A stretch of 60,198 bases of DNA from Eubacterium sp. ER2 (GTDB lineage: Bacteria > Bacillota > Clostridia > Lachnospirales > Lachnospiraceae): the NCBI RefSeq assembly GCF_000765215.1, contig NZ_JPJE01000048.1:1-60198 (forward strand), written 5' to 3'. Every line of letters begins with the position of its first letter. The stretch's first letter is position 1. Under the pieces are notes generated by a model. The model had not been told where the DNA came from and did not search any database. It was given only the letters and a program-made list of their open reading frames with translations. Below are positions 40,046 through 56,267 of this stretch, piece by piece. The position numbers and the translations under genes are program-made.

Positions 40046-40106
40046 ATAGGTTCCTCCCTGATCATTGTAAGTCAAATTATGGGTGATTTCTGTACACAAA
40101 TTTTCC

Positions 40107-40156
40107 GACACGTATGTCTGTAAAATAATTATACGACACACATGTCGGAAAAACAA
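40107..40156 (-). promoter_or_regulatory. promoter of the TetR-phosphorylase gene with two operator dyads
   Basis: Minus strand TTGTTT (40156-40151), 17 bp, TATAAT (40133-40128). Dyad 1, GACA-CGTA-TGTC (40107-40118), lies at the start site; dyad 2, CGACA-CACA-TGTCG (40134-40147), fills the spacer. Their centres are 28 bp apart. Both share GACA-N4-TGTC, consistent with autorepression by two TetR dimers. Confidence 0.65.
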
Positions 40157-40826: not shown

Positions 40827-42002
40827 GTGAGACAGAAGAATGTACTGATTGTGACGACGGTGAGCGGCTTTTTGTGGCAGTTTGAAAGGAATACAGTGGA
40901 CATTCTGCGAAAGGCAGGAGCCAGGATCCACTATGCGTCCGACTTCGGGAGTAAGGACTATGATTTTGATGAGGAGTATTTCACGGAAAATGAGATCCAG
41001 GTGCACCCTGTTTCTATCCGGAAGTCCCCTTTTCATATAAAGGAAAATTGCCGGGCGCTGGTGGAGCTGATCCGCATCATACGCAGGGAGGAGATCCATG
41101 TGGTGCACTGCCACAATCCTGTGGGAGGTGTGCTTGGACGGCTGGCTGCCTGGCTTTCCGCAAGAGAGGTGAAGGTGATCTACACGGCCCACGGCTTTCA
41201 TTTCTACAAAGGTGGGCCTCTGAAAAGCTGGTTTCTCTTTTACCCTGTGGAGAGAGCGCTGGCCAGGATGACAGATGTGCTGGTGACTATCAACAGGGAG
41301 GACAGAAGCTGTGCCGGCCGGTTTATCTTAAAGAAGGGCGGCCAGGTGGCGTTTATGCCGGGAACGGGGACGGATACAGACAGGTTCTGCCCGGACAGGA
41401 GCAGACGGCAGGAGGCGAGACAGGTCATGGGTGTGAAGGAGGGGGAGTACTGCCTTGTGACAGCGGCCCGCCTGGACCGGGAAAAGAACTGTCAGACTGT
41501 CCTGCGAGCCATGGAGGAGCTGGGAGATATCCCCTGCCGGTATGTGATCTGCGGGGAGGGACCCTGGCGGCCCTTCCTGGAAAGAGAGGTCAGGCGGCGG
41601 GGGCTGGAAGACAGGGTGAGGCTCATGGGCTTTCGGGCAGATATGGATTTCCTTCTGCAGGGCGCCGACCTGTTTCTCTTCCCCTCTCTCAGGGAAGGGC
41701 TGGGAATGGCGGCTCTGGAGGCTATGGCCTGCGGCCTTCCGGTAGTGGCAGCAGACAGCCGGGGGACGAGAGAGTATATCCGCCAGGGGGAGAACGGCTT
41801 CCTGTGCAGCGGACGGCAGCCCCGGGAGTTTGCGGAGGCGGTCAGAGAGCTGTGGCAGAGGGAGGATCTGCGAAGCGACATGGGCAGGGAAGCAAGAAGG
41901 ATGAGCCTTCGGTTCTCCCGGCAGAGGGCAGGAGAAAAAATGGAAGAAATTTACAGGAGCGTTGGAATATGGAAAAAAGACCCGAAGTCAGCGTCATTAT
42001 GA
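40827..42002 (+). CDS. GT4 family glycosyltransferase
   Basis: 391 residues, GT-B fold: N-terminal acceptor domain (VLIVTTVSGFLWQFERNTVDILRKAG, YTAHGFHFYKG) and C-terminal nucleotide-sugar domain (VTAARLDREKN, FPSLREGLGMAALEAMACGLPVVA, the E-x7-E motif). Resembles Wbb/EpsD-type capsule glycosyltransferases. GTG start at 40827 with TAAGGAGAG upstream. First gene of the glycan operon, overlapping the next by 34 nt. No confident promoter was found in the 260 nt before it. Confidence 0.87.
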   Translation: MRQKNVLIVTTVSGFLWQFERNTVDILRKAGARIHYASDFGSKDYDFDEEYFTENEIQVHPVSIRKSPFHIKENCRALVELIRIIRREEIHVVHCHNPVGGVLGRLAAWLSAREVKVIYTAHGFHFYKGGPLKSWFLFYPVERALARMTDVLVTINREDRSCAGRFILKKGGQVAFMPGTGTDTDRFCPDRSRRQEARQVMGVKEGEYCLVTAARLDREKNCQTVLRAMEELGDIPCRYVICGEGPWRPFLEREVRRRGLEDRVRLMGFRADMDFLLQGADLFLFPSLREGLGMAALEAMACGLPVVAADSRGTREYIRQGENGFLCSGRQPREFAEAVRELWQREDLRSDMGREARRMSLRFSRQRAGEKMEEIYRSVGIWKKDPKSASL

Positions 42003-42814
42003 GTGTGTATGATCCAAGACCTTTCAGGCAGCTTGAGGAGGCAGTGCACTCTGTGCTGGAGCAGACCTTTTCAGATTTTGAGCTTCTCCTGTACAATGAC
42101 GGCTCCTGCGAGGCTGTGTCGGAGAGGATCCGGCAGCTGGCCAAGAGGGATCCGAGGATCCTTTATCTGGAAGGGGATGAGAACAGAGGTATTGCCAGCG
42201 GGCTGAACTGCTGCATCAGGAAGGCCCGGGGGAAATATATCGCCCGGATGGACGGAGATGACCTTCTTCTTCCCCAGCGGTTTGAGCGGCAGGTCCGGTT
42301 TCTTGAGGAACACCAGGAGTACGGCTTTGTGGGCACCGGAGCCTGGCTCTTTGACGAGGGCGGCATCTGGGGAGAGAGACTGATGAGGGAGAAGCCCAAG
42401 AGGGAGGATTTCCTTTGCTTTTCCCCCTACATCCACCCCTCTGTCATGTTTCGCAGGAGCATTTTTGAAAAGTGCGGATTCTATGATGAGTCAGAGAGAG
42501 TCAGGAGATGTGAGGACTATGAGCTTTTTGTGAGGCTGCATATTTTGGGCTGCCGTGGGTATAATCTCCAGGAGAGGCTGATCTGCTACCGGGAGGGAGC
42601 GGACAGCTGGAAGAAGAGAAAATTCTGTTACCGCCTGGACGAAATGCGTTTTCGCAGCCAGGGCTTTCAGGCTTTGGGGCTCACAGGGGGCAAGGCCTGG
42701 ATCTGCCGTTTCCGTCCCCTGGCCGCAGGGATGATTCCCCGGTCAGCGGGAAGATGGCTGAAGAGGCGGCAGGCCGCGCTTTCACACAGCGGCCCGCAGA
42801 CCGGCCCGGACTAG
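41969..42814 (+). CDS. GT2 family glycosyltransferase
   Basis: 281 residues, GT-A fold, begins EKRPEVSVIMSVYDPRPF, with the substrate motif YNDGSCE, the DXD-type ARMDGDD and the catalytic region CEDYELFVR. It starts inside the end of the GT4 gene; AGGAG lies 10 nt upstream. It adds a sugar during glycan assembly on the cytoplasmic face. Donor and linkage are unknown. Confidence 0.9.
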   Translation: MEKRPEVSVIMSVYDPRPFRQLEEAVHSVLEQTFSDFELLLYNDGSCEAVSERIRQLAKRDPRILYLEGDENRGIASGLNCCIRKARGKYIARMDGDDLLLPQRFERQVRFLEEHQEYGFVGTGAWLFDEGGIWGERLMREKPKREDFLCFSPYIHPSVMFRRSIFEKCGFYDESERVRRCEDYELFVRLHILGCRGYNLQERLICYREGADSWKKRKFCYRLDEMRFRSQGFQALGLTGGKAWICRFRPLAAGMIPRSAGRWLKRRQAALSHSGPQTGPD

Positions 42815-42859
42815 CCGGCGGGGGAGATAAGGGGGCAGGTGACAGAGGAAGGAGCGGAT

Positions 42860-44161
42860 ATGGACGGAAGTCTTGTCACAGAGGAGGAGCGCCTCGAGAC
42901 TGTGCGGGATCGTGCCCGGGAGGTGCTGGCGCCTGCCATGGTTGAATTTGTAAAGTGGATCTTAAGATCCGCCGGAGAGAGAAATATCCGGCGGATCTAT
43001 TTTCTTGCCAGGGACGGCTGGCCTATGTACCGGGCTGCCAGGATTTTGGGAAGGGATGTGGAGCCTGCTGTTGATTGCCGGTATTTCTGCTGCTCCAGGT
43101 ATGCGCTTCGGATCCCCTGCTTTCACCTCATGGACAAAAGAGAGATAGCGGATCAGGTCTGCGTGGGAGGAGTGGATGTCACACTGCGGAAAATCCTGAA
43201 AAGAGGGGGGCTGGATGAAAAGGAGGCAGAGAGGACGGCGGAGGTGATGGGCATGCGTGAGGAGCTGGACCGGGTCCTCCCCTACCGGGAGATTCTCCGG
43301 CTGCGGGAGAGCCTCCTGGAGGGGGAGCTGTTCTGGCGGTATGTGTACAGCCACGCGGCAAAAGCCTATGACAACGCAGTCTCCTGGATCGCCCAGGAGG
43401 GATTTCTGGAGCCGGTCCGGTGCGCTGTGGCGGACAGCGGGTGGACAGGGAGTATGCAGCTGACGCTGAAGCGGCTTTTGGAGTCCATGAACTACAGAGG
43501 GAAGCTGGAGGGCTTTTACTACGGGCTGTACCACATTCCGGAACAGGCAGATCCCCGGGATTACCATGCATATTATTTCGGCCCGGATGGAAAGATAAGA
43601 AGAAAGGTGTATTTCTCCAACAGTCTCTTTGAGTGCGTGTTCAGCCAGCCCGAGGGCATGTGCGTCGGATACGGGAGGACAAAGGAGGGGATGGCTCCCG
43701 TGCGGGAGAAAGGCCGGCCTGAAAACCGGGCCCTCCTCACCTGTGTGACTGAGGCGGTGGAGGAGCAGGCGGGAGAGGAGAGAAAGGAGCTGGCAGAGCG
43801 GACGCTGGACTGGCATATCCAGGATCCGGGGACAGCCCAGAGGAAGCTGGCCCGGCTCATGGGAAGCCCTACCCGGGAGGAGGCGGAGGCCTTCGGGGGC
43901 ATGGCCTTCTCCGACGACGTGCTGGATGCGGATCAGACCCTGGCGGCGCCCTTAAGCGAAGAGCAGATCCGGGAAAACAGGTTTCTGGCACGGGGCCTTT
44001 CCATGGTCGGACTTCGCAGGGATCCGGTCCATGAGAGCGCCTGGATGGAGGGCTCCATTCTCCTCTGCGGGAGACATGTGAGGCGCCATCTCTGGCATAA
44101 CCGCCTGTACAAATACGCTCTGTATTACAGAAAACAGATGGGAGAGAGAAGGAAGCGATGA
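42860..44161 (+). CDS. stand-alone 'FLxRDG / DxGWxG' domain protein of the glycan operon
   Basis: 433 residues. It shares with two later operon proteins a domain whose marks are IYFLARDGW (residues 46-54) and ADSGWTGSMQ (191-200), resembling the C-terminal part of COG5610-type HAD proteins, but has no HAD domain itself. It ends in a basic tail. No signal peptide. I prefer ATG 42860, with GGAAGGAG 5 nt upstream, over GTG 42839. It overlaps the ABC permease start by 4 nt. Possibly a glycan-modifying or chain-capping enzyme, but the activity is unknown. Confidence 0.65.
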   Translation: MDGSLVTEEERLETVRDRAREVLAPAMVEFVKWILRSAGERNIRRIYFLARDGWPMYRAARILGRDVEPAVDCRYFCCSRYALRIPCFHLMDKREIADQVCVGGVDVTLRKILKRGGLDEKEAERTAEVMGMREELDRVLPYREILRLRESLLEGELFWRYVYSHAAKAYDNAVSWIAQEGFLEPVRCAVADSGWTGSMQLTLKRLLESMNYRGKLEGFYYGLYHIPEQADPRDYHAYYFGPDGKIRRKVYFSNSLFECVFSQPEGMCVGYGRTKEGMAPVREKGRPENRALLTCVTEAVEEQAGEERKELAERTLDWHIQDPGTAQRKLARLMGSPTREEAEAFGGMAFSDDVLDADQTLAAPLSEEQIRENRFLARGLSMVGLRRDPVHESAWMEGSILLCGRHVRRHLWHNRLYKYALYYRKQMGERRKR

Positions 44162-44916
44162 AGGGACAGCCATACTTTGCGCTGAGGCAGCTGGTGACAA
44201 GGGAAATGAAAAGAAAATACAGCCGTTCCAGGCTGGGCATCCTGTGGAGTGTGCTGAGTCCGCTCCTCTCCATGGCTGTTCTGTCCCTGGTCTTTTCCAC
44301 CATGTTCCGAAAGTCTATCGAGAACTATCCGGTATACTATCTGACCGGGTTTGTGATCTGGAGCTTTTTCACTGCGGCCACCAACACGGCTATGACAGCC
44401 CTGGCGGACAACCAGGCCCTGATCCTCCAGGTCCGGCTGCCCAGGTCTGTCTTCCCCCTCTCCAGGGTGGTGACAGCCTTTGTGAATTTTCTCTACTCCC
44501 TGGCAGCCTACGGCGTCATGCTCCTTTTGTTCCGCATTCCGGTGAGGGGGAGCGCGCTTGTCTTTCCGGTGCTGGTCTTTTTTCTCTTCCTTTTCTCCCT
44601 GGGCATGGGGTATATCCTGTCCGTCCTCTATGTGTTTTTCGGGGATATCCGCCACCTGTACGGAGTGGCCCTGACGCTGTGGATGTATCTGTCCGCCCTG
44701 TTTTACCCTCTGGAGCTTCTGCCTGGGACTATGCAGGCGGTGATCTGGCAGAACCCGGTGTACAACTTCATCGCCGGGGCCAGGGACTGCATCCTCTACG
44801 GCAGGATCCCCCCGGCCGGCGTCCTCCTTCGGACGGCAGTGTGGGGAGCCGGCATGTACGGGATCGGGAGGCTTGTGTTCCGCAGGAGTCAGAGCAAGGT
44901 GATACAGAAACTGTAA
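44158..44916 (+). CDS. ABC-2 type polysaccharide/teichoic acid exporter, permease
   Basis: 252 residues with six hydrophobic segments, of the Wzm/TagG/KpsM family (LVTREMKRKYSRSRLGILWSVLSPL, then LTGFVIWSFFTAATNTA, and a C-terminal YNFIAGARDCILYG). It forms the membrane channel with the next gene's ATPase to move lipid-linked glycan outward. Start overlaps the preceding stop (ATGA). Confidence 0.92.
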   Translation: MKGQPYFALRQLVTREMKRKYSRSRLGILWSVLSPLLSMAVLSLVFSTMFRKSIENYPVYYLTGFVIWSFFTAATNTAMTALADNQALILQVRLPRSVFPLSRVVTAFVNFLYSLAAYGVMLLLFRIPVRGSALVFPVLVFFLFLFSLGMGYILSVLYVFFGDIRHLYGVALTLWMYLSALFYPLELLPGTMQAVIWQNPVYNFIAGARDCILYGRIPPAGVLLRTAVWGAGMYGIGRLVFRRSQSKVIQKL

Positions 44917-44931: not shown

Positions 44932-45708
44932 ATGGAGAAGAGAACAGAGGAAAAGCCGATCATCTCGGTGCAGCATGTGAGCATGCATTTTAAGGTGCCC
45001 CTGGAGGGGGCCTCCAGCCTGAAAGAGTATGTCATAGGAGGGCTGCGTGGGAAAAACAAGACCCGGATTTTACGCGCCCTGGACGACATCAGCTTTGAGG
45101 TCAGGCGGGGAGAGATACTGGGCATTATCGGGACAAACGGGTCCGGAAAGAGCACCCTTTTGAAAATCATTTCCGGCGCCCTCCTTCCTACGGAGGGGCG
45201 GGTGGTGGCGGACCAGGACAGCATCCAGCTCCTCACTTTGGGAACCGGGTTTGACCGGGAGCTGACAGCCAGGGAGAATGTCTATTTAAGCGGCGCTCTT
45301 CTGGGCTACAGCAGGGAATTTATCCGGCGCAAATACAGGCGGATCGTGGAATTTGCGGAGCTGGAGGGCTTTATGGAGCAGAAGGTGAAGAATTTTTCCT
45401 CCGGCATGGTCTCCAGACTGGGATTTGCCATCGCCACAGCCAGGGAGACGCCTGGCATTCTCATACTGGACGAGGTGCTCAGCGTGGGAGATATGTTTTT
45501 CCGGGAAAAAAGCGCCGGCCGGATCCAGGAGATGATCCACAGCGGGGCTACGGTCCTGATCGTGTCCCACTCGGTGGACACGATACGGAAAAACTGTACC
45601 CGGACCCTGTGGCTCGAGAGAGGCCGTCAGCGGATGGAAGGATCCCCCGGGGAGGTGTGTGCGGCCTACACAAAGTGGGGCAGGCAGGAAAACGAAGGGA
45701 AGGGGTAA
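44932..45708 (+). CDS. ABC-type polysaccharide/teichoic acid exporter, ATPase
   Basis: 258 residues: Walker A GTNGSGKST, Q/signature FSSGMVSRLGFAIA, Walker B ILILDEVLSVGD and switch His in IVSHS. Matches Wzt/TagH/KpsT. It is short and ends after the nucleotide-binding domain, so it lacks the C-terminal carbohydrate-recognition domain of some Wzt proteins. It starts 15 nt after the permease behind GGTGAGAGG. Confidence 0.93.
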   Translation: MEKRTEEKPIISVQHVSMHFKVPLEGASSLKEYVIGGLRGKNKTRILRALDDISFEVRRGEILGIIGTNGSGKSTLLKIISGALLPTEGRVVADQDSIQLLTLGTGFDRELTARENVYLSGALLGYSREFIRRKYRRIVEFAELEGFMEQKVKNFSSGMVSRLGFAIATARETPGILILDEVLSVGDMFFREKSAGRIQEMIHSGATVLIVSHSVDTIRKNCTRTLWLERGRQRMEGSPGEVCAAYTKWGRQENEGKG

Positions 45709-45713
45709 GAAGG

Positions 45714-47774
45714 ATGAAGGAGCATACGAGACAGGAAAATGTAAAACGGAAGGTGTACAGCCTCCTGGCCGGCAGGGTGCCGGGGATCGCCGGGAGATAC
45801 CAGCGCTTTCGGAAAGACCATCCGGGGATGGCCGGCAAAGTGGGGGCGGCGGCAGGCCTCCTGTGGTGGAACGCTCTCTACTATGGAGGGCGAAAGGAGA
45901 GCCTCAGGTTTCCGGACGGATACGGCTTTTATGAGAGGAGGAGGCTGAGGCTGCCGGAGTCGGGTGCCACTGGTCTTCCCACCTGGAAGGAGACGGCAGA
46001 GCTGCTGCTCTCCTTTGACCTGGTATCCTTTGACGTCTTCGACACTCTGCTCCTTCGCCCCTTTCGGGAGCCTGCGGATCTTTTCTATCTGCTGGGAATG
46101 AGGCTGTCCATTCCGGATTTCCGGCATCTTCGGATAGAGGCGGAGCATCTGGCAAGGCAGGAGGATGTGAGGCGGGGCGGCAGCGGTGAGGTAACCCTGG
46201 AAAAGATCTGGAGGATCCTCTCCGCCATGACAGGGGCGGACGCGAAAGAGGGACAGAGGGCGGAGATGGAGCTGGAGAGGCAGTACTGTCAGGCCAATCC
46301 TTATTTCATCCCCATCCTGGAGCGGCTGAGAGGAGAGGGAAAGCGGCTCCTCCTTGTGAGCGACATGTACCTGGAGTCTGATTTTATCCGGCAGCTCCTG
46401 AAGGAGAAGGGGCTGGGGGCCTTTGACGGCTGCTTTGTGTCCTGCCAGCAGGGACGGTCCAAGTGGAGGGGAGACCTGTACCAGGAGGTAAGAGGGAGCA
46501 TTGAGAGAAAATGGACGGACGGGGGAGACTGCCGGGCAGTCCACGTGGGGGATAATCTCCACGCGGATGTGCGCATGGCAGAGAGGGCCGGCTTTGCGGC
46601 CTTTTGGTACCCGGGTCCCCAGGAGGCCGGACGGCCCTGCCGTGCCAGGGACATGTCCGCCGTCACCGGCAGCATGTACGCGGGCCTTGTCAACATCCGG
46701 CTCCACAGCGGACTTAAGAGATACACCTCCTTCTACGAGTACGGCTACGTGTACGGCGGTCTCCTGGCCCTTGGCTACTGTCGGTTCATACACAGGTTTG
46801 TCAGGGACAGGGGAATCCGCCGGCTCTGGTTTCTCTCCCGGGACGGGGAGGTGCTGAAGAAGGTGTACGACCAGCTCTATCCGGGGGAGGATACCTGCTA
46901 TGTGCTCTGGTCCAGGAGCGCGGCCGCCAGGCTTCTGTCTGGCGTCAATCAGCACGATTTTTTTCAGAGGTTTCTCTTCCAGAAGGCGGACCAGGGGTAT
47001 TCCATCCGTCAGATCTTTGCCAGTATGGAGCTGGACTTTCTCCTGGAGGAGGCCTGCCGGAAGCAGGGCTGGGGACAGGAGGAGCGGCTAAGCGCCGCCA
47101 GGGCCGAAGCGTGCCGTGATTTTCTCCTCTCTAAGTGGGAGGAGGTGCAGGCGTCCTACGAGAGAGAGCGGGAGGCGGCCGGGAAATACCTGGCGGGGCT
47201 TTCCTCCGGCGCGGCGGCCATGGCGGCGGTGGACGTGGGGTGGGCCGGAAGCGGGGCCGCCTCCCTGGATGTGTTCCTGCGCCAGGTTCTGGGGCTGCCC
47301 TGCTGGGTCTACGGTACCCTGGCGGGCACGGCCACTGTGTACAGCGCCTCCCCGGACACGGCGGAAGGCTTTTTCTTCTCCGGACAGATGGACAGCTACC
47401 TCTTCTCCCAGAGCAAGAACAGGGATCTCTGGAAATTCCACAACCTGGGGGAAAAGCATAACCTCTACATGGAGCTTCTGTTTACCTCCCCCTCCCCGGG
47501 GCTCAGAGGCTTTGCCCTGGGGGAGGAGGGGGAGGTGGTGTTCCGGTACGGGAGGGAGGAAAAGCATGCGGATGAGATCCGGCGGATCCAGAAGGGAATT
47601 TTGGATTTTGTCCGGGATTACATGCGCTGCTTCCCGGAATTCCTGGAGGGGGAGACGGGCTGGATCTCCGGACGGGACGCCTACGCCCCGCTGCTTTTGT
47701 TCCTGAGGGACAGGAGGATAAGGCGAAAATTTGAGGCCTCCTTCTGCTGGGACACGGACGTGAATGTGGAGTAG
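45714..47774 (+). CDS. HAD hydrolase plus 'FLxRDG / DxGWxG' domain (COG5610-like)
   Basis: 686 residues. HAD motifs: FDVFDT (106-111), VSDMY (215-219), Lys in SKWRGDL and HVGDN (277-281). The C-terminal half has GYVYGGLLALGYCRFIH, LWFLSRDGE (371-379) and VDVGWAGSG (506-514), the same module as the genes at 42860 and 51224. Likely acts on a sugar phosphate or phosphodiester during capsule synthesis, but specificity is unknown. Start 45714 follows AAGAAGG; an ATG at 45609 lies inside the ATPase gene. Cytoplasmic, no signal. Confidence 0.75.
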   Translation: MKEHTRQENVKRKVYSLLAGRVPGIAGRYQRFRKDHPGMAGKVGAAAGLLWWNALYYGGRKESLRFPDGYGFYERRRLRLPESGATGLPTWKETAELLLSFDLVSFDVFDTLLLRPFREPADLFYLLGMRLSIPDFRHLRIEAEHLARQEDVRRGGSGEVTLEKIWRILSAMTGADAKEGQRAEMELERQYCQANPYFIPILERLRGEGKRLLLVSDMYLESDFIRQLLKEKGLGAFDGCFVSCQQGRSKWRGDLYQEVRGSIERKWTDGGDCRAVHVGDNLHADVRMAERAGFAAFWYPGPQEAGRPCRARDMSAVTGSMYAGLVNIRLHSGLKRYTSFYEYGYVYGGLLALGYCRFIHRFVRDRGIRRLWFLSRDGEVLKKVYDQLYPGEDTCYVLWSRSAAARLLSGVNQHDFFQRFLFQKADQGYSIRQIFASMELDFLLEEACRKQGWGQEERLSAARAEACRDFLLSKWEEVQASYEREREAAGKYLAGLSSGAAAMAAVDVGWAGSGAASLDVFLRQVLGLPCWVYGTLAGTATVYSASPDTAEGFFFSGQMDSYLFSQSKNRDLWKFHNLGEKHNLYMELLFTSPSPGLRGFALGEEGEVVFRYGREEKHADEIRRIQKGILDFVRDYMRCFPEFLEGETGWISGRDAYAPLLLFLRDRRIRRKFEASFCWDTDVNVE

Positions 47775-47780
47775 AAAGAA

Positions 47781-49172
47781 ATGGCAGGTATGAAGAAAAG
47801 AAGGAAGGGATACACTATATTCAGGGCGTTGAAGACGGGCGGTCATCTCCTGGTCCTTGGGGGCAGCTTTCTTGGAGCCTTTCGGGTGCTGGAAGATCTG
47901 GGGCATGGGCGGCCTCTTCCCCTGGCGGTCCTGTACCTTGTCCTTCTGGAGGGGTTCTGGCTTATTCTGGAGGCAGGAGATGTGGAACAGCGAAGATTTC
48001 TGGATCTCATGTACAGTCAGTTCTTCGGGGCCGCGGCGGCCAGCCTTTTCTTCGGGGCGCTGATGTGCGCGGTGAGCTCCCTTTCCATGTGGCAGATACT
48101 GGGGGAGTTCTTCCTGCTCCTCGTCCTGCAGTCCGGGGCGGGCATGGCATGGGCGGCCCTCTGCTTTGGCCTGTACCTGCGGGGACAATCCCACAAGCGG
48201 GCGCTTTTCATCTACGGGGAGAGGGAGGAACCGGAGGAGATCACAGAGAAAAACAACCGGATCAACGGCTATTTTCACATTGCGGCCAGTGTCCCCTGCC
48301 GGGAGGCGGCCAAAAGGCCGGGGGAGGTGCTGGGCGGATACCAGGCGGTGTACCTGGGAGACCTGCCCCCGGGGGACAAGGGGGCCATCCTGGAGCAGTG
48401 CATGATCATGGGAAAGGACTGCTACAGCATCCCCGGGCTCATAGATGTCTATACCCAGAACGCCCGTATTCTGCGGCTCCAGGACAAGGTACTGTTCCAG
48501 TACCACAAAGGAGGGCTGACGGCGGGGCAGAAAAAGGCAAAGAGAGCCCTGGATATAGGGGTGGCTCTGGCTCTCCTTGCGCTGTCGGCGCCTCTGATGC
48601 TGGTCATCGCTCTGTGCGTCCGGCTGGAGGACGGGGGGCCTGTGCTCTACAGGCAGATCAGGTACACTGAAGGGGGCAGGCCCTTCCGGATGCTCAAATT
48701 CCGGAGCATGCATGTGGATGCGGAGCGGGAGGGGGCCAGGCTTGCCAGCAGGAATGACAGCCGGATCACCCGGGTGGGGCGGATCATAAGGAACCTGCAT
48801 TTTGACGAGCTGCCCCAGCTTGTCAATGTGCTGAAGGGGGACATGTCCATGGTGGGGCCCAGGCCGGAGCGCCGGGAGTTTATTGAAGAATACTCCCGCG
48901 TTATCCCAGAGTTCTCCCAGCGCATGAAGGTGAAGGGCGGCCTCACCGGGTACGCCCAGATCTATGGCAAGTACAACACCGGGCCGGAGGACAAGATCAA
49001 GTACGATCTCATCTATATATACAACTACTCCCTCAGGCTGGATGTGCGCCTCCTTTTCCTCACGGTCCGGATTTTATTCCAGAAGGAGAGCGCAGAGGGG
49101 GTGGAGGAGGGGCGCAGGAGCGCTGTGAGGGAAAGAAAGGAGAGACAGGATGGAGACGATCAGACTTCTTGA
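47781..49172 (+). CDS. polyprenyl-phosphate sugar-1-phosphate transferase (initiating)
   Basis: 463 residues. Four N-terminal membrane segments and a central Rossmann-like region precede the bacterial sugar transferase domain: KRALDIGVALALLALSAPL, RQIRYTEGGRPFRMLKFRSM, FDELPQLVNVLKGDMSMVGPRPERREF, GLTGYAQIYGKYN. It links the first sugar phosphate to undecaprenyl phosphate, starting the glycan. Its C-terminal tail is very basic and overlaps the aldolase gene by 23 nt. It begins 6 nt after the HAD gene. Confidence 0.93.
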   Translation: MAGMKKRRKGYTIFRALKTGGHLLVLGGSFLGAFRVLEDLGHGRPLPLAVLYLVLLEGFWLILEAGDVEQRRFLDLMYSQFFGAAAASLFFGALMCAVSSLSMWQILGEFFLLLVLQSGAGMAWAALCFGLYLRGQSHKRALFIYGEREEPEEITEKNNRINGYFHIAASVPCREAAKRPGEVLGGYQAVYLGDLPPGDKGAILEQCMIMGKDCYSIPGLIDVYTQNARILRLQDKVLFQYHKGGLTAGQKKAKRALDIGVALALLALSAPLMLVIALCVRLEDGGPVLYRQIRYTEGGRPFRMLKFRSMHVDAEREGARLASRNDSRITRVGRIIRNLHFDELPQLVNVLKGDMSMVGPRPERREFIEEYSRVIPEFSQRMKVKGGLTGYAQIYGKYNTGPEDKIKYDLIYIYNYSLRLDVRLLFLTVRILFQKESAEGVEEGRRSAVRERKERQDGDDQTS

Positions 49173-50727
49173 CTGTACCCTCAGAGACGGGGGGTACATC
49201 AATGACTGGGACTTTAAGCGGAAGAACATACGAAGGATCATGGCGGGGCTGGAGGAGGCCGGGACAGACCTCATTGAGGCGGGTTTCCTGCGGGACTGCG
49301 CCTACCGGGAGGACCGCACCCTCTTCAACTCGGTGCGGGAGCTTAAGCAGATCCTGCCTGAGGGCGGCGGACGGGGCGGCTACGTCCTCATGGCCCTCCA
49401 CGATAAGTACGATGTCCGCAAGCTGGAGGAAAATGACGGTACTGTGGAGGCCATCCGGGTCACCTTTCACGACTACGATGTGGACGAGGGGCTGGAATTT
49501 GGCAGAAGGGTCATGGAGAAAGGATACCGTCTCTTTGTCAACCCCATCAACATCATGGGCTACAGCGACAGCAGTCTCCTGCGGCTCCTGGAGAAGGTGA
49601 GGGAGCTTCGGCCCTACGGCTTCTCCATCGTGGACACCTTTGGCTCCATGACCAAAAAAGAGCTGGTGCGGATCAGCTCCCTGTGCGAGAACAACCTGGA
49701 CAGGGGAACCGTGCTGGGACTTCATCTCCACGAGAATATGGCCCAGTCCTTTCTGCTGGCCCAGACCTTTCTGGAGATCAAGAGCCAGGAGAGATCCTGC
49801 GTGCTGGACGCCTCCCTGAACGGGATGGGGCGGGTGCCGGGCAACCTGTGCATGGAGCTGATCATGGACTATCTGAACCGAAGCTACGGGAAGCGCTACG
49901 ACCTGGATCCGGTGCTGGATGTCATCGAGACCTGCATCACGCCCATCAGGGAGAAGGAGCCCTGGGGATACATGGCGGAATATTTTCTGTCCGCCAAACT
50001 GAACCTCCACAGAAACTACGCGGAGTACCTGCTCTCCAGGGGCAATCTGACAGCCCGGGACATGCACCGCATCCTGCAGCTCATACCAGAGGAGAAAAAG
50101 AGTGTCTATGACGAGCGGTTTGTGGAGAAGCTGTACCGGGTCTACGAGGACCGCACGGTCCAGGATCAGGCCGCTATCCGGAGCCTGGGGGAGGTATTTG
50201 CCGGGAGGACCGCAGTCCTTTTGGCGCCGGGAAAGTCCCTGGAGTACCAGTGGGACAGGGTGCGGGACTATATCCGTGAGAAGGATGCCATCCCTGTGTC
50301 AGCCAATTTCTACTTTGAGGAACAGCAGGGAGGCTACGCCTTCTTCAGCAACGCCAAGAGGTACGACAGCTACCGGGCTTTCCGGAACCCGCGGGAGCAC
50401 GTGATCCTCACCTCCAACATTACCAGAGGGGTGGGAGAGGAGGACGATGTGGTCAGCTACGGACGGCTGGCACAGGACGGCCGTCCCACGGAGAACTGCG
50501 GGGTGCTGCTTTTGCGCCTGATGCGGCTTCTGGGGGCAAAGGAGGCGGCCCTGGCCGGCTTTGACGGCTACAGTACGGGGCAGGACAATTACATGAAGGG
50601 ATATTTCGGGGAATACCACAGCGCCAGGAGCGCGGACAATGAAGAGATCGCGGAGGAGATCCGGGAAGTGGGGAGAAGTCTTCCTGTCACCTTCCTCACT
50701 CCCTCTCTGTACGAGGAGGCGGTGTAG
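49150..50727 (+). CDS. HMGL/DRE-TIM-type aldolase with extra C-terminal domain
   Basis: 525 residues. Residues 1-300 are a DRE-TIM barrel: LDCTLRDGGY (7-16) with the catalytic Arg-Asp, and metal ligands in HLHEN (192-196). Closest in appearance to 4-hydroxy-2-oxovalerate aldolase-like proteins of capsule loci. Residues about 345-525 (VLLAPGKSLEYQWDRV onward) form a second domain I cannot name. Adjacent KdsC-like phosphatase and, later, KdsB-like cytidylyltransferase suggest it makes a 2-oxo-3-deoxy sugar acid by aldol addition. Start ATG 49150 behind AAAGGAGAGACAGG overlaps the transferase by 23 nt. Confidence 0.8.
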   Translation: METIRLLDCTLRDGGYINDWDFKRKNIRRIMAGLEEAGTDLIEAGFLRDCAYREDRTLFNSVRELKQILPEGGGRGGYVLMALHDKYDVRKLEENDGTVEAIRVTFHDYDVDEGLEFGRRVMEKGYRLFVNPINIMGYSDSSLLRLLEKVRELRPYGFSIVDTFGSMTKKELVRISSLCENNLDRGTVLGLHLHENMAQSFLLAQTFLEIKSQERSCVLDASLNGMGRVPGNLCMELIMDYLNRSYGKRYDLDPVLDVIETCITPIREKEPWGYMAEYFLSAKLNLHRNYAEYLLSRGNLTARDMHRILQLIPEEKKSVYDERFVEKLYRVYEDRTVQDQAAIRSLGEVFAGRTAVLLAPGKSLEYQWDRVRDYIREKDAIPVSANFYFEEQQGGYAFFSNAKRYDSYRAFRNPREHVILTSNITRGVGEEDDVVSYGRLAQDGRPTENCGVLLLRLMRLLGAKEAALAGFDGYSTGQDNYMKGYFGEYHSARSADNEEIAEEIREVGRSLPVTFLTPSLYEEAV

Positions 50728-51243
50728 ATGCAGCAGGTGATGGAAAATCTGGAGAAAATACGGTATCTCATACTGGACGTGGACGGCACCATGACGGACG
50801 GGGGTGTCTATCTGGACAGCAGGGGAGCGGAGATGAAGAAGTTCAGCATCAAGGACGGGGCGGGGATCCTCCTGGCCAGGAGGGCAGGCATCGAGTCCGT
50901 CATCCTCACAGGGAGAGAGAGCCAGTGTGTCCGGAAGCGGGCCGAGGAGCTTGCCATCCCTCTCGTCTTCCAGGGAGTGAAGGACAAGAGGGCGTTCCTT
51001 CTGGAATTTCTTGAGACCAATGAGATCCTCCCCCAGGAGGCGGCCTATATGGGGGACGACCTGAACGACCTGGAGGCCATGCAGTGCGTGGGCCTTGCCG
51101 TCTGCCCTCAGGACGCGGCCAAGCAGGTGAAGGCCTACTGTCCCATCGTTCTCTCCGCCAGAGGCGGTGAGGGGGCTGTGCGGGAATTTGTGGAAATGAT
51201 ACTGGAAAAGCGAGGGATACAGTATGAAGGACTGGCTCTATGA
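50728..51243 (+). CDS. KdsC/YrbI-type HAD phosphatase
   Basis: 171 residues, capless HAD of the KdsC family: ILDVDGTMTDGGVYLD, ILTGRESQCVRKRAEEL, Lys in GVKDKRAFL, and MGDDLNDLEAM. KdsC removes phosphate from 3-deoxy-ulosonate 8- or 9-phosphates; related proteins serve sialic and other nonulosonic acids. It starts directly at the aldolase stop and overlaps the next gene by 20 nt. The normal short length suggests a tetramer. A free-sugar product would feed the cytidylyltransferase at 55533. Confidence 0.9.
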   Translation: MQQVMENLEKIRYLILDVDGTMTDGGVYLDSRGAEMKKFSIKDGAGILLARRAGIESVILTGRESQCVRKRAEELAIPLVFQGVKDKRAFLLEFLETNEILPQEAAYMGDDLNDLEAMQCVGLAVCPQDAAKQVKAYCPIVLSARGGEGAVREFVEMILEKRGIQYEGLAL

Positions 51244-53938
51244 CAGGATCGTCCGCCATAACGAGAGGATCCAGAGGGAGTATGAGCGGTATGTGCGGGG
51301 ACATATGGGAGAGCACAGGAAGAAAAGGTGGAAGCATTGGATCGTCCTTCTCCTGCTGGCAGTGAAATACAGGGACAGCCAGAAGGACCGGGTCCACAGC
51401 CTTGTCCTTGTGAAGCTGAAGGAGGGGACCGCGAAGCTGCGCATGGAGTGGGTGCCGGGGGCGGTCTGGTACAATGTGTATATGTCCCGGGACGGGCTGA
51501 ACTACCGCTTTGTGGAGAAGGTGAAGAGGCACGTGTGCAAGGTGCGGGGGCTGGAGGAGGACAAAATGTACTTTTTCCGGTTCAAGGTCTCCCTGGACGG
51601 CAGCAGCTACAGCGAGTTCTCCGAGGCGCTGACTGTCACGGCTGTCAAAAACAAGGAGCACTACCTGATGGAGCAGATCTCTGTAAGAGAGGCGGAGGGA
51701 GGCTGCGGAAGGGCCGATGACAGGGAGTTCCCCGGAGCGGAGACCGGGTCGGGGAAGGACAGGAGAGAAAAAAAGGGGGACGGCAGCTATGCTTTTTCGG
51801 CCTCCCCGGGGGAGTCCGGAGGCCTGCTGCTTGTCTGGGAGAAGATCCCGGGAGCCCTCCACTACAATCTGTACCGGTCCCGGGAGGGCGGCAACTGGCG
51901 TTTTGCGGTGCAGACCGAGGAGGACCGGTATCTGGACAGCCAGGTGAAGGGCGGAGACGCCTATGTATATAAGCTCAAGTACACCTTTGACGGGAAAAGG
52001 TACCACGAGTTCCCGGAGCAGGCGGCCGGGCGGGCGCCGCTGGAAAAATACCGGAACGCCAACAGCGGGCGTCTCTGGGAGAGAGGGGCTGAGTCGGAGG
52101 CAGTGGGGCGGCCTCTGCCGGTCCATCTGGCCAAGAGCATGCTGGCCTTTGACGTGGTTTCCTTTGACGTCTTTGACACACTCATCCTGCGCCCCTTTTC
52201 CGAGCCCTCAGACCTCTTTATCCTGGTGGGTGAGGAGCTGGGTATCATGGACTTCTGCGAGATACGAAAGAAGGCGGAGGAGGACGCCCGCAGAAGGAGC
52301 GAGTTCCTGCGGGGCAGCCGGGAGGTGACCTTGTACGACATCTACGAGATGGTGGAGGAGGAGACCGGCGTGGAGGCGGTGTCGGGGGCCAGGACAGAGT
52401 TCCTCACAGAGAGAAAGCTCTGCTTTGCCAACCCCTATATGCTGGAGGTATTCCGCATGGTGAAGGCCAGGGGAAAGACGGTGGTGGCCGTGTCGGACAT
52501 GTATCTGCCCCGGGAGCTGATGGAGGAGCTGCTGCGGTCCTGCGGATACGAGGGATTTGACGACATCCTCGTCTCCTGCGACTACAGCTGCACCAAGAGA
52601 AAGGGCGGCCTGTTCGACATCCTGAGAAAGAAATACAGGGGCGCGATCTTCCATGTGGGGGACCATCCAAGGTCCGATGTGGAGGCCGCCCGGGAGAGGG
52701 GCATCGAGGCGAGGCAGTACAGGAATGTGAACGAGGCCGGAAGGCCCTTCCGGGCAAAGGATATGTCCCGCCTGGCGGGCAGCGCCTACCGGGGCATCGT
52801 CAACGCGAAGCTACACAACGGCAGAGACCGGTACACACCCTGGTACGAGGTGGGCTATGTGTACACAGGGCTGTACTGTATGGGATTTTGCCGCTGGATC
52901 ATGGAGCAGGCCAGGGCACACGGGCTGGAGAAGATCCTGTTTCTGGCAAGAGAAGGGGATCTGTACCAGAAGGTGTTTTGCCAGATGTACCCGGATTTCC
53001 CCACAGCCTATGTGCTCTGGTCCAGAATTCCCGTGGTGAAGACTACTGTGAACTGGAACAGGCATCCCTTTCTTCTCCAGATCATCCACCACAAGGCCGG
53101 GGCTCTCTACAAGTCCAGGCTGGGAATCCTTTTTGATAGAGTGGGCATCGGGGCCCTGAAAAAATATTTTCCCGCCTACAGGCTGCGGGAGGAGGAGTAC
53201 CTAACCAGTGAGAACGAGAAGGCGGTGCGGCGACTGGTGACGGAGCACTGGGATGAGCTGGCCTCCTGCTACAGCGCGGACCAGGCCTGCATAGAGTCCT
53301 ACCTGAGACGGCAGGTGGGGGACGCCCGCAGAGCCGCCGTGGTGGACGTGGGCTGGTCCGGCAACAATGTGCTCCAGGTCAGGCATCTGATCGAGGAGGA
53401 GTATGGCATGGACTGCAAGATCCACTGTCTTCTGGCGGCCGCGAGGGATGTCAACGACACCTACATGGCAGGCATGATGCAGCGGGGGCAGGTGCAGACC
53501 TACCTCTTTTCCCCCATGCACAACAAGGGGCTCCACGATGCCCACCAGGAGGAAAATGAGAGGCTTAACTCCTTCTTCTTTGAGATACTGACCCAGTCCG
53601 CCACCCCCACCTTCCTCGGCTTTGACAGCCAGGGCCGGTTCCTCTACGACATTCCGGAGGTGGAGAACTACGCAAGAGACGGACAGATCCATGAGGGTGC
53701 GCTGGATTTTGTGAGGGACTACACGGAGATATTCAGGGACTTCCCCTATATGATGGATATCTCCGGGCATGACGCCTACATGCCCTTCCAGTATTTTTCC
53801 AGAAACCTTCTCTGGATGAGACAATATTTTGGAGACTATATTTTCGGGAGAGACCTTTTTGCCACCCAGGACAAGGCAGTGATGGAGTCCGTGCGGGAGG
53901 TGATGGAAAAGGCCGGATTATGGGAGGAGAGACAATGA
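51224..53938 (+). CDS. FN3-like x2 - HAD - 'FLxRDG / DxGWxG' multidomain protein
   Basis: 904 residues. Two beta-sandwich, fibronectin-III-like units (about 68-140, WVPGAVWYNVYMSRDG; and 200-265, WEKIPGALHYNLYRSREG) precede a HAD domain with FDVFDT (314-319), VSDMY (423-427) and HVGDHP (477-482). The C-terminal module GYVYTGLYCMGFCRWI, LFLAREG (572-578) and VDVGWSGNN (707-715) matches the proteins at 42860 and 45714. No signal peptide. FN3-like units fused to a cytoplasmic HAD enzyme are unusual and may bind the growing glycan. Start overlaps kdsC-like by 20 nt, stop overlaps the next start. Confidence 0.75.
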   Translation: MKDWLYDRIVRHNERIQREYERYVRGHMGEHRKKRWKHWIVLLLLAVKYRDSQKDRVHSLVLVKLKEGTAKLRMEWVPGAVWYNVYMSRDGLNYRFVEKVKRHVCKVRGLEEDKMYFFRFKVSLDGSSYSEFSEALTVTAVKNKEHYLMEQISVREAEGGCGRADDREFPGAETGSGKDRREKKGDGSYAFSASPGESGGLLLVWEKIPGALHYNLYRSREGGNWRFAVQTEEDRYLDSQVKGGDAYVYKLKYTFDGKRYHEFPEQAAGRAPLEKYRNANSGRLWERGAESEAVGRPLPVHLAKSMLAFDVVSFDVFDTLILRPFSEPSDLFILVGEELGIMDFCEIRKKAEEDARRRSEFLRGSREVTLYDIYEMVEEETGVEAVSGARTEFLTERKLCFANPYMLEVFRMVKARGKTVVAVSDMYLPRELMEELLRSCGYEGFDDILVSCDYSCTKRKGGLFDILRKKYRGAIFHVGDHPRSDVEAARERGIEARQYRNVNEAGRPFRAKDMSRLAGSAYRGIVNAKLHNGRDRYTPWYEVGYVYTGLYCMGFCRWIMEQARAHGLEKILFLAREGDLYQKVFCQMYPDFPTAYVLWSRIPVVKTTVNWNRHPFLLQIIHHKAGALYKSRLGILFDRVGIGALKKYFPAYRLREEEYLTSENEKAVRRLVTEHWDELASCYSADQACIESYLRRQVGDARRAAVVDVGWSGNNVLQVRHLIEEEYGMDCKIHCLLAAARDVNDTYMAGMMQRGQVQTYLFSPMHNKGLHDAHQEENERLNSFFFEILTQSATPTFLGFDSQGRFLYDIPEVENYARDGQIHEGALDFVRDYTEIFRDFPYMMDISGHDAYMPFQYFSRNLLWMRQYFGDYIFGRDLFATQDKAVMESVREVMEKAGLWEERQ

Positions 53939-55536
53939 TACTGTACCAGGCTCTGTCGGCCTACCAGATACTGGAGTGTATGGTCCACCGGCAGATGTAT
54001 TACAGAGACAGAAAATGTGTCCTCATACTGGGGGACTACATCAAAGAGAGGATGCCCCGGTATTTTGAGCTGGAGACGAAGCGGTTCTTCAATGAGGTGT
54101 ACCTGTTCCGGTTCGGGGGCTACAGAGGGTCGGAGGAGGAGATCATCCGCCAGGTGGGAGAGGAGCTGGCAAGGAGCATTCCCTACAGGCCACAGGACTT
54201 TGAGAGGATACTCATCGCCGGGATCCACACCTACCTGCAGGTCTATCTCCTGTCAGAGGGCATCTCCTTTGAGATGTTCGAGGACGGCAGCGGGGCTCTG
54301 AGCCGTCCCTGGGTCCTGGCGCAGATTCACCAAAAGAGCGCGCCGGGGCGGTACGCCCTCATAGAGAAATACGGACTTTACGACCACACCAGTCCCCTGA
54401 TCACAAAGAAGTACTGCGACATGGCTGCCCAGGAGCCGGGCTTTTTGGACCCCAGAGCGGAGGATTTTCAGGTCATGGAGGAATTCCACAGACTGCCCGG
54501 GCGGCAGCAGGAGGAGATCCGGTGCATTTTCCAGGTTCCGAGGCTTTCGGGGCGGGAGGATGAGGTGCTCCTTCTCACCCAGCAGTTTGCCAGCCTGGGC
54601 CAGCTTACCTTTGACGGCCAGATCGACATTTACCGGCATCTGTTTGACTACTATCTGGAGGGCCGACGGGTGCGCATCAAGCCCCATCCGGACGATATCC
54701 TCTACTACTCCCTCCTCTTTCCCGAGGCGGAGCTCATAGAGGGGAACTTTCCCTCGGAGCTTCTGCCCCTGGCCTTTGACCGGCTTCCGGGCACGGTCTG
54801 CACGGTCAGCTCCACAGGGGTGAACCAGATCCGGCGGTTTTTTGACAGACAGATCCTTTTTAATCCGGAGTACGAGGAGAGCTATCAGCACGATGCCCTT
54901 TACTGTATGGCTCTCTGTCTGGCGCTGCATTTAGGGATGGAGGGGATCCTGACAGAGGGGGTCAACCTGGCGCAGCTGCGGAATATGGCCAGGTGTATGG
55001 GAGAGCCCTGGGACGCCCTGGACATCCGGGAGTACCGGGAAGGAGAGTACCGGAAAAAAGAGTGCCGGGAGGCGGAGGCCTGCGCCCTCCTCCTGCTGCG
55101 GGGAGATGAAGGCTCCCGGGAGCTGCCGGGGGAGCGTCCTCCCGGGGAGGAGACGGATCCCTGGGCAGTCCTCTGGCTCAATGAAAAGGGAAGGTACAGG
55201 ATGTATGACCCCGGCAGCAGGGAGCGCTTTTTTCAGCTGCGGCCCCTGGTGGTCCGGGAGGGAGATGCGCGGCATATCATGTATTTTTATTCGGCAAGGA
55301 GCGAGGTGAACAGGATGGCAGAGGAGTTCAGGGAAAGGAGGGAGCTTCCCCACCAGGGGAAGACCATCTCCGTGGAAGGGCTGACAGAGGAGGAGCTGCG
55401 GATTTGCATGCTGGAGGGAATTCTGGCAGCTACGGAGCGGCGGCTGCTGGAGTATATAGAGACGGAGAAGGAGCTGAGAGAGGAAATAAGAAGCCTGAAG
55501 GAAGCGGGCGAGAGAAGAGGGGGGAGGACGCAGTGA
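53935..55536 (+). CDS. sialyltransferase-like CMP-sugar glycosyltransferase (GT52/polyST type)
   Basis: 533 residues. It shows the motif order of bacterial sialyltransferases using CMP donors: FEDGSG (115-120, D/E-D/E-G), KPHPDD (249-254, HP) and VSSTG (291-295, S-S/T). It starts ILYQALSAYQILECMVHR, like polysialyl and LOS sialyltransferases. A C-terminal extension beyond residue 340 is Glu/Arg-rich with a coiled-coil end. Start 53935 overlaps the preceding stop (ATGA); GGGAGGAGA is upstream. Expected donor is the CMP-sugar made by the next gene. Confidence 0.75.
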   Translation: MILYQALSAYQILECMVHRQMYYRDRKCVLILGDYIKERMPRYFELETKRFFNEVYLFRFGGYRGSEEEIIRQVGEELARSIPYRPQDFERILIAGIHTYLQVYLLSEGISFEMFEDGSGALSRPWVLAQIHQKSAPGRYALIEKYGLYDHTSPLITKKYCDMAAQEPGFLDPRAEDFQVMEEFHRLPGRQQEEIRCIFQVPRLSGREDEVLLLTQQFASLGQLTFDGQIDIYRHLFDYYLEGRRVRIKPHPDDILYYSLLFPEAELIEGNFPSELLPLAFDRLPGTVCTVSSTGVNQIRRFFDRQILFNPEYEESYQHDALYCMALCLALHLGMEGILTEGVNLAQLRNMARCMGEPWDALDIREYREGEYRKKECREAEACALLLLRGDEGSRELPGERPPGEETDPWAVLWLNEKGRYRMYDPGSRERFFQLRPLVVREGDARHIMYFYSARSEVNRMAEEFRERRELPHQGKTISVEGLTEEELRICMLEGILAATERRLLEYIETEKELREEIRSLKEAGERRGGRTQ

Positions 55537-56267
55537 GGACAGCAGGCATCATACCGGCCCGGTACGGCTCCACCAGGCTGCCCGGGAAGCCCCTGCTTAA
55601 GATCCAGGGCAGACCCATGGTGTGGTGGGTCTGCGAGAGGGCCAGGAGGGCCCGGCGGCTGGATGAGGTGTGGGTGGCCACGGACGACCGGCGGATAGAG
55701 GAGGCCTGCAGAGGCCTTCAGATCCCGGTGGTCATGACAGGGCGGGAGCACCGGACGGCGGCGGAGAGGCTGCAGGAGGCGGCAGGGCAGGTGAGGGCGG
55801 ACTTCTACGTGCAGATCAACGGGGATGAGCCCCTCATCGACCCGGCCAACATCGACGCCGCCGTGCCGGACGAGGTTCCCCTGGACGTGGAGTTCGGCAC
55901 CAACATCATCGCCCGGGTGAAGGACCCGGCCCAGCTCTGTCACGCCTCCAACATCAAGGTGGTCTTTGACGACAGCTTCCGGGCCCTCTACATGTCCAGG
56001 ACGCCGGTGCCATACCCCTTCTGCGATGTGTCTTTTTCCTATTATAAGCATGTGGGGATCATCGGCTACAACCGGAAAATGCTGGATTTTTATAAGTCCT
56101 CCGTCCCGGGGCGGCTGGAGCTGATCGAGGGAATTGACACCCTGCGTTTTCTGGACTACGGAAAAGAGCTTCGGCTGATCCCGGTGGAGCGGGCGGACAG
56201 TCTGTCTGTGGACACGGAGGCGGACCTTCGCTGGGTGCGGGAGAGGATGGGTGAAAAGAGGTTATAA
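55533..56267 (+). CDS. CMP-ulosonate synthetase (KdsB-like cytidylyltransferase)
   Basis: 244 residues: the CTP-binding GIIPARYGSTRLPGKPLL, VQINGDEPLID and the C-terminal LRFLDYGKELRLIPVE of KdsB. KdsB couples CTP to 3-deoxy-manno-octulosonate. In a Gram-positive context the substrate could be Kdo or another 2-oxo-3-deoxy acid. GTG start at 55533 overlaps the preceding stop (GTGA) and follows GGGGGGAGG. Last gene of the glycan operon. Confidence 0.9.
   Translation: MRTAGIIPARYGSTRLPGKPLLKIQGRPMVWWVCERARRARRLDEVWVATDDRRIEEACRGLQIPVVMTGREHRTAAERLQEAAGQVRADFYVQINGDEPLIDPANIDAAVPDEVPLDVEFGTNIIARVKDPAQLCHASNIKVVFDDSFRALYMSRTPVPYPFCDVSFSYYKHVGIIGYNRKMLDFYKSSVPGRLELIEGIDTLRFLDYGKELRLIPVERADSLSVDTEADLRWVRERMGEKRL

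Follow-up and report, generated by a model that had tools for sequence, protein, structure and literature searches.

A predicted aldolase route to a CMP-activated ulosonic acid

The window analyzed here, a contig of 60,198 nucleotides (nt) from the genome of Eubacterium sp. ER2 (genome G000, contig G000:C49), contains an operon that, judging from its sequence, is likely to make a 3-deoxy-2-ulosonic acid activated with cytidine monophosphate (CMP) without a synthase that condenses phosphoenolpyruvate (PEP). In this gut bacterium a metal-dependent aldolase appears to replace the usual synthase in the formation of a sialic-acid-like surface sugar. To our knowledge, the described de novo routes to 3-deoxy-D-manno-octulosonic acid (Kdo), 2-keto-3-deoxy-D-glycero-D-galacto-nononic acid (KDN), and sialic-type acids all join PEP to a sugar by KdsA- or NeuB-type synthases. 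The proposal concerns the following features.

49150-50727, + strand: aldolase protein of two domains (PF00682, 48 bits, cut-off 29)
49150..50154, + strand: its aldolase domain, of the DRE-TIM/HMGL fold, the proposed carbon-carbon bond-forming step; nearest characterized kin 4-hydroxy-2-oxovalerate aldolase
50155..50724, + strand: its C-terminal domain, of the sialyltransferase/Maf/MptE fold
50728..51243, + strand: KdsC/KDN-9-phosphatase-type HAD phosphatase (TIGR01670, 148 bits, cut-off 107)
53920..55536, + strand: GT52/polysialyltransferase-type transferase, candidate user of the CMP-ulosonate (PF07388, 28.8 bits, and PF07922, 28.5 bits, both over cut-off)
55533..56267, + strand: KdsB-type CMP-ulosonate synthetase with a GTG start (PF02348, 143 bits)

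Between 42839 and 56267 on the + strand, adjoining genes either overlap by 4-23 nt or lie 0-15 nt apart, and because of this spacing on a single strand the aldolase, phosphatase, transferase, and cytidylyltransferase genes are placed in one transcription unit. A preliminary description of the window had put these four enzymes in one operon and had reported EDG, KPHP, and SST motifs in the transferase; family matches and the tight spacing place all four where it had them, the motifs are present in the translation of the transferase, and the operon observation is confirmed as genuine. Its account of the extent of the operon was right for the four genes, but it overlooked a protein of 904 amino acids (aa), the second domain (~190 aa) of the aldolase protein, and an upstream reach to at least 42839 that takes in a Wzm/Wzt exporter.

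In the pathway that we propose, the aldolase, with a divalent metal, would form the enolate of pyruvate and add it to a phosphorylated aldose to give an ulosonic acid phosphate. From their families, the KdsC-type phosphatase would then remove the phosphate, and the KdsB-type enzyme would use cytidine triphosphate (CTP) to make the CMP-ulosonate. The GT52/polysialyltransferase-type enzyme would move the ulosonate to a lipid-linked glycan, which would be started by a glycosylphosphotransferase and exported by Wzm/Wzt.

No match to KdsA or NeuB synthases in the genome

The genome to which the window belongs spans 3.27 Mb in 74 contigs and is 99.91% complete. Searches of the whole genome gave no match to PF00793 (which takes in KdsA and 3-deoxy-D-arabino-heptulosonate 7-phosphate (DAHP) synthase), to the KdsA model TIGR01362, or to the NeuB family PF03102, and among 14 control genomes PF00793 was matched in 11 and NeuB in 9. 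The preliminary description had reported no KdsA/NeuB-type synthase in the operon, and this now extends to the nearly complete genome, in which neither kdsA nor neuB turned up. Two known arrangements were rejected on the same grounds: a classical Kdo pathway with a distant kdsA has no match in the genome, and a nonulosonate pathway lacks its NeuB there. The genome has a single PF02348 (CTP_transf_3) match, the KdsB-type gene of the operon. As a side observation, a genome without a PF00793 match has no type I DAHP synthase, and this organism may make its aromatic amino acids with a type II enzyme or take them up.

KdsB and the aldolase are linked across the class

Of 391 sampled genomes of the class, 50 contain an aldolase relative at E <= 1e-20, and 32 of them still do when the threshold is E <= 1e-44 (G-numbers below denote sampled genomes and L-numbers aldolase or KdsB loci). 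KdsB (TIGR00466) is found at E < 1e-39 in 10 of the 391, the next match being at 6e-18, and eight of these ten have an aldolase on the same strand, adjacent in seven and, in the window, in the same operon at a distance of 4.8 kb. The hypergeometric chance of at least eight shared genomes is 3e-8, a figure that serves as a guide only, as the genomes are related; the KdsB-aldolase set is not a product of chance. One strong-KdsB genome without a linked aldolase, G243, has the order kdsB-kdsA-kdsD-kdsC, and KdsA passes its cut-off in 2 of the 391 genomes. Classical kdsA also occurs in the family of the window, in G202 and G243. In G011 (L182, G011:C113, 4702-6400), KdsB is directly followed by a protein of the dihydrodipicolinate synthase (DHDPS) family (PF00701, 95 bits), and no KdsA over cut-off was found in that genome; the two genes may form another aldolase route, of class I, or else serve salvage or breakdown.

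The preliminary description had presented the route as unusual in a Gram-positive; it is not peculiar to one such organism, as 93 of the 397 family genomes sampled contain relatives of the aldolase. Sorted by partner, 17 of the 32 close aldolases in the class have a CTP_transf_3 protein beside them or in their operon (G181 has in addition a thiamine pyrophosphate (TPP) enzyme), three form a fusion with an IspD-type cytidylyltransferase, a further 11 are flanked by a TPP enzyme, and one (G014) adjoins a CTP_transf_like protein.

The clearest sign that the aldolase may do the job of KdsA comes from one locus among the 160 scanned, in which it occupies the place of kdsA. The gene order in G202, a genome from the family of the window, is CTPT2-kdsA-kdsD-kdsC, where CTPT2 is a second CTP_transf_3-type cytidylyltransferase; in G313, also of this family, it is CTPT2-aldolase-kdsD, with 64% identity between the two KdsD proteins and 48% between the two CTPT2 proteins. 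The G313 genome contains no KdsA (best E 4e-4). Because the aldolase there adjoins kdsD, arabinose 5-phosphate is the likely acceptor in G313. The classical locus of G202 (L184, 3521-10670) consists of kdsA-kdsD-kdsC and CTPT2, with MptE-like proteins on both sides.

Gene neighborhoods of named relatives

We also examined a set of named relatives, the best 80 of at least 565 confirmed, taken from a scan of genome contigs; genes at their loci were called with custom profiles at 60 bits, representatives of which were identified by Pfam. Some of these loci lie on the same contigs as loci of the sampled genomes, and counts from the two sets are not summed. The nearest named relatives of the window aldolase are from Lachnospiraceae, and many of the aldolase relatives come from animal guts according to their record titles. 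A KdsB-type or CTPT2 gene lies in the same-strand flank of 75 of the 80, within 500 nt in 62, and a KdsC- or HAD_2-type phosphatase is present in 56. Transferases of the GT52/polysialyltransferase or MptE-like kinds are found in 54 (E <= 1e-5). NeuB is found in one named locus (L132, 235 bits) and KdsD in none. A match to the KdsA profile in L089 was set aside as probably a DAHP synthase (82 bits, against 580 for a true KdsA; a frame of 349 aa lying 7.3 kb away).

An alternative that we consider unlikely is that the ulosonic acid is salvaged from host sialic acid or from other bacteria and that KdsB activates the import, with the aldolase unrelated or working in the direction of breakdown. Aldol reactions are reversible, salvage would also explain a genome without either of the PEP synthase families searched, and the partner of KdsB in G011 belongs to a family that holds lyases. 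Salvage needs no phosphatase, however, and one of the KdsC/KDN-9-phosphatase kind adjoins the window aldolase, recurs in the named flanks counted above, and in L051 is fused to it, the aldolase, its C-terminal domain, and the KdsC-type phosphatase forming one frame of 755 aa. In addition, the G313 aldolase adjoins KdsD, a biosynthetic isomerase, and no importer of free sugar acids was recognized within the operon.

The aldolase protein

By profile, the best solved match of the aldolase is 3dxi (E 1e-47), followed by DmpG-type 4-hydroxy-2-oxovalerate aldolases (E 3e-25), and a structure model with a predicted local distance difference test score (pLDDT) of 91.8 ranks 3dxi first and 4-hydroxy-2-oxovalerate-type aldolases next. 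Alignments were made of 28 sequences (A1, with L021 left out for a stop in its match) and of 47 (A2 and A3, made up of the window sequence plus 46 from the 80 named loci). All 47 aligned sequences have R12-D13, H192-x-H194, and N196, and we take these residues to be the R-D motif, the HxH metal ligands, and the Asn of such aldolases. The DmpG/BphI-type enzymes (1nvm, 4lrs, 8ih7) share the fold and metal-site motifs with the window aldolase, but they are catabolic and have an aldehyde dehydrogenase partner, whereas the window aldolase and its relatives lie in glycan operons with CMP-sugar genes. The closest solved structure, 3dxi, is the N-terminal domain of a putative aldolase, BVU_2661 of Bacteroides vulgatus, by its title likewise one domain of a larger protein; no function was found for it, the papers listed under its names being unrelated by their titles and abstracts.

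It is also conceivable, though quite improbable, that the donor is not pyruvate but another 2-oxo acid, or an acyl-CoA as in isopropylmalate synthase, the product then being a branched or longer sugar acid. The DRE-TIM superfamily holds acyl-CoA synthases, which are also among the matches of the aldolase, and the position of the DmpG base differs in the window protein (see below). Both by profile and by structure, however, 4-hydroxy-2-oxovalerate aldolase is the best characterized match, and KdsB-type enzymes, from what is known of the family, have 2-ulosonic acids as their substrates, for which the pyruvate pattern is required.

The C-terminal domain of the aldolase protein, ~190 aa, has the sialyltransferase/Maf fold, although a Pfam search of the window copy gave no match; in the fold search, the absence of other folds carries no weight. 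It differs from Maf, from the Cst-I/CstII sialyltransferases, and from MptE (PF01973, PF06002) in being fused to an aldolase, in its size, and in having no conserved catalytic histidine, as His occurs in at most 9 of the 47 copies at any column. The domain may bind a CMP-sugar, the product, or a partner. Some close relatives carry this operon and do without the domain, which is therefore not essential.

Apparent partner exchange, fusions, and a possible wider family of routes

In a FastTree phylogeny of 121 aldolase domains (42 of 117 inner branches starred), the partner label changes 24 times, and the KdsB and CTPT2 types are interleaved. Taken by type, the labels of the cytidylyltransferase types change 18 and 20 times, at least 11 of each forced by starred branches, and the TPP label, which is more clustered, changes 4 times. 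The aldolase thus seems to have been re-paired repeatedly with cytidylyltransferases, and the many switches mean that the linkage does not come from common descent alone. Fusions are also found: an IspD-type cytidylyltransferase precedes the aldolase in L061 (6854-8602), L062 (1522-3312), and L063 (7916-9670), which suggests a product linked to CDP (cytidine diphosphate) or CMP, and L057 joins the aldolase and a GT2 domain in a single frame. The aldolase route put forward in the preliminary description is the reading with the most support, which it draws from the genome without KdsA or NeuB matches, the KdsB-aldolase linkage, the kdsA slot of G313, and the fusions with phosphatase and cytidylyltransferase, the activity itself being predicted.

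The five named loci without a cytidylyltransferase (L103 and L147-L150) each have a TPP enzyme in which all three TPP-enzyme domains are present; enzymes of this type act on 2-oxo acids. L132 has both kinds of partner. More widely, there is no CTP_transf_3 neighbor at L044, L046-L049, L052-L054, L103, and L147-L150, and the TPP enzyme there resembles acetolactate synthase in its three TPP domains. At such loci the TPP enzyme would perhaps perform a decarboxylation or an acyl transfer on the aldol product.

These neighborhoods, together with the IspD-type fusions, bear on a third alternative, in which the aldolase extends a nucleotide-linked sugar, such as a CDP- or UDP (uridine diphosphate)-sugar, and KdsB serves another route. 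Some relatives do have a TPP enzyme or sugar-nucleotide genes and no KdsB, yet the aldolase, KdsC, and KdsB travel together in the clade of the window, and no sugar-nucleotide dehydratase was recognized in the window operon, so that we regard this as very unlikely. Finally, for a phosphonate route, with CMP activation by PntC-type enzymes (PMC6697681), no PEP mutase was seen in the operon, though the genome was not searched for one.

Beyond the CMP-ulosonate pathway proposed for the window, a broader reading, on which our judgment is evenly divided, is that a widespread PEP-independent route to 2-oxo sugar acids for surface glycans exists, above all in gut Bacillota. One metal-aldolase family, often with its own sialyltransferase-fold domain, would add the three carbons of pyruvate to sugar phosphates, and interchangeable partners (KdsB-type, CTPT2, fused IspD-type, or TPP enzyme) would decide the fate of the acid; in G313 the aldolase would replace KdsA and make Kdo from arabinose 5-phosphate.

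Several observations weigh against the aldolase route or against its generality. In the first 80 listed of the 93 aldolase-positive genomes of the family, NeuB (E < 1e-30) is present in 47 and KdsA over cut-off in 4, with neither in 33, and a NeuB elsewhere in a genome means that an outside supply of ulosonic acid is possible there. Weaker matches in relatives to NeuB (~1e-4 to 1e-13) and KdsA (~1e-4 to 1e-43) were read as DAHP synthases and left uncounted because the frames are mostly of 330-400 aa and share coordinates. Six genomes with the whole operon were tested (a seventh, G767, lies outside the 80): G000, G416, G477, G587, and G726 have neither KdsA nor NeuB, and G676, of the same genus as the window, has a NeuB ~0.33 Mb away. 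G313 carries three NeuB genes, one on the same contig ~20 kb off. KdsD stands beside the aldolase in G313 alone among the 160 loci. Fifteen of the 32 close aldolases lack a CTP_transf_3 protein beside them or in the operon; a TPP enzyme takes its place in 11 of these, and CMP activation is therefore not the sole use of the aldolase. The profiles for partner genes were built from the same named loci to which they were applied. Lastly, structural alignments give only 16-18% identity between the window aldolase and DmpG-type enzymes, and the DmpG histidine that follows RDGx, presumably the catalytic base, is not kept; Tyr16 stands in the aligned column of the window protein, and the base would have to differ.

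Which acid is made

For the phosphatase, the top model is KDN-9-phosphatase (155 bits, under its cut-off of 180), and the best structure match is 3e81, named there acylneuraminate cytidylyltransferase, which we take to be the KDN-9-phosphate phosphatase of B. thetaiotaomicron. The KdsB-type enzyme has the cytidylyltransferase fold and the GDEP motif and matches 13 solved structures at E <= 1e-10, all named CMP-Kdo synthetases; it scores 223 bits against NF003952, over the cut-off of 193, and 142.8 bits against the kdsB equivalog, under the cut-off of 155.2. The Glu-Gln pair of the SLEQLR motif is present in none of 57 KdsB proteins of aldolase loci, the window included, which has Asp-Thr where classical enzymes have Glu-Gln, while the two others in the alignment have the pair, which is also present in the two solved CMP-Kdo synthetases that were compared residue by residue. 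The Gln preceding GDEP is retained in 13 of the 57. We assume that the Glu-Gln residues bind Kdo. KdsD, the arabinose-5-phosphate isomerase (TIGR00393), reaches 26.6 bits at best in G000, against a cut-off of 203.7, and among 18 genomes passes the cut-off only in G313, G202, and G243. Because KdsD over cut-off is absent, the KdsB residues are changed, and the phosphatase is KDN-9-phosphatase-like, the product of the window operon is probably an ulosonic acid other than Kdo.

Layout of the surrounding glycan cluster

The remaining genes of the cluster are as follows.

40827..42002, + strand: GT4-type glycosyltransferase at the upstream end of the glycan cluster (PF00534, 143 bits)
41969..42814, + strand: GT2-type glycosyltransferase (PF00535, 101 bits)
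42839..44161, + strand: protein of 440 aa, family unassigned, with perhaps a remote resemblance to one section of the long HAD proteins
44158..44916, + strand: Wzm-type ABC-2 permease for polysaccharide export (PF01061, 60 bits)
44932..45708, + strand: Wzt/TagH-type export ATPase (PF00005, 78 bits)
45714..47774, + strand: protein of ~686 aa with a HAD domain (weak matches) and a long uncharacterized C-terminal part, conserved in relatives
47781..49172, + strand: polyprenyl glycosylphosphotransferase, which likely starts the glycan on lipid (TIGR03025, 314 bits, cut-off 296; PF02397, 212 bits)
51224..53938, + strand: protein of 904 aa with a HAD-like part, in the same place in relatives

For the 440-aa protein, NCBIfam gave nothing at E <= 0.1 and Pfam nothing significant; proteins of similar size at the corresponding position upstream of Wzm in L221, L226, and L227 score 62-72 bits with a long-HAD profile. 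The permease scores 64 bits against the galactan export permease model NF050109, under its cut-off of 380, and the top models for the ATPase are teichoic-acid and galactan export ATPases, all under cut-off. The proteins at 45714-47774 and 51224-53938 are two long, related HAD-domain proteins whose C-terminal parts are uncharacterized and whose positions are kept in relatives. On the - strand, a single frame at 38684-40156 begins with a TetR-type regulator (PF00440), after which comes a domain of the phosphorylase superfamily (PF01048, 83 bits).

Relation to known systems and significance

The window operon and the Kdo pathway (KdsD-KdsA-KdsC-KdsB) have their phosphatase and cytidylyltransferase families in common, and in one relative the gene order around the carbon-carbon bond-forming step is alike; the Kdo pathway has the PEP-condensing KdsA, whereas in the window a metal-type aldolase takes its place, the KdsB residues differ, and the genome lacks a KdsD over cut-off. 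Kdo-type genes likewise occur in the Gram-positive Bacillus coahuilensis m2-6, which has a Kdo island with kdsB, kpsC, kdsD, kdsC, and kdsA (PMC4744853); with its kdsA and kdsD this is the classical set, unlike the window. Kdo genes in a Gram-positive are thus already known, and it is the replacement of the PEP step that seems to be new. Among the open-licence papers searched, we found none in which a CMP-ulosonate is connected with an HMGL-type aldolase, which is not proof of novelty.

The finding is not limited to one operon but covers a widespread module, whose central enzyme step is predicted. Sialic-like sugars in the gut can be read by host lectins. If the route is as proposed, genome annotation would overlook acidic surface sugars of a sialic-acid-like kind in many commensals of the gut, the aldolases would be new tools for the synthesis of such sugars from inexpensive pyruvate, and the operons would allow one to test directly how a committed step can be swapped while the flanking genes stay.

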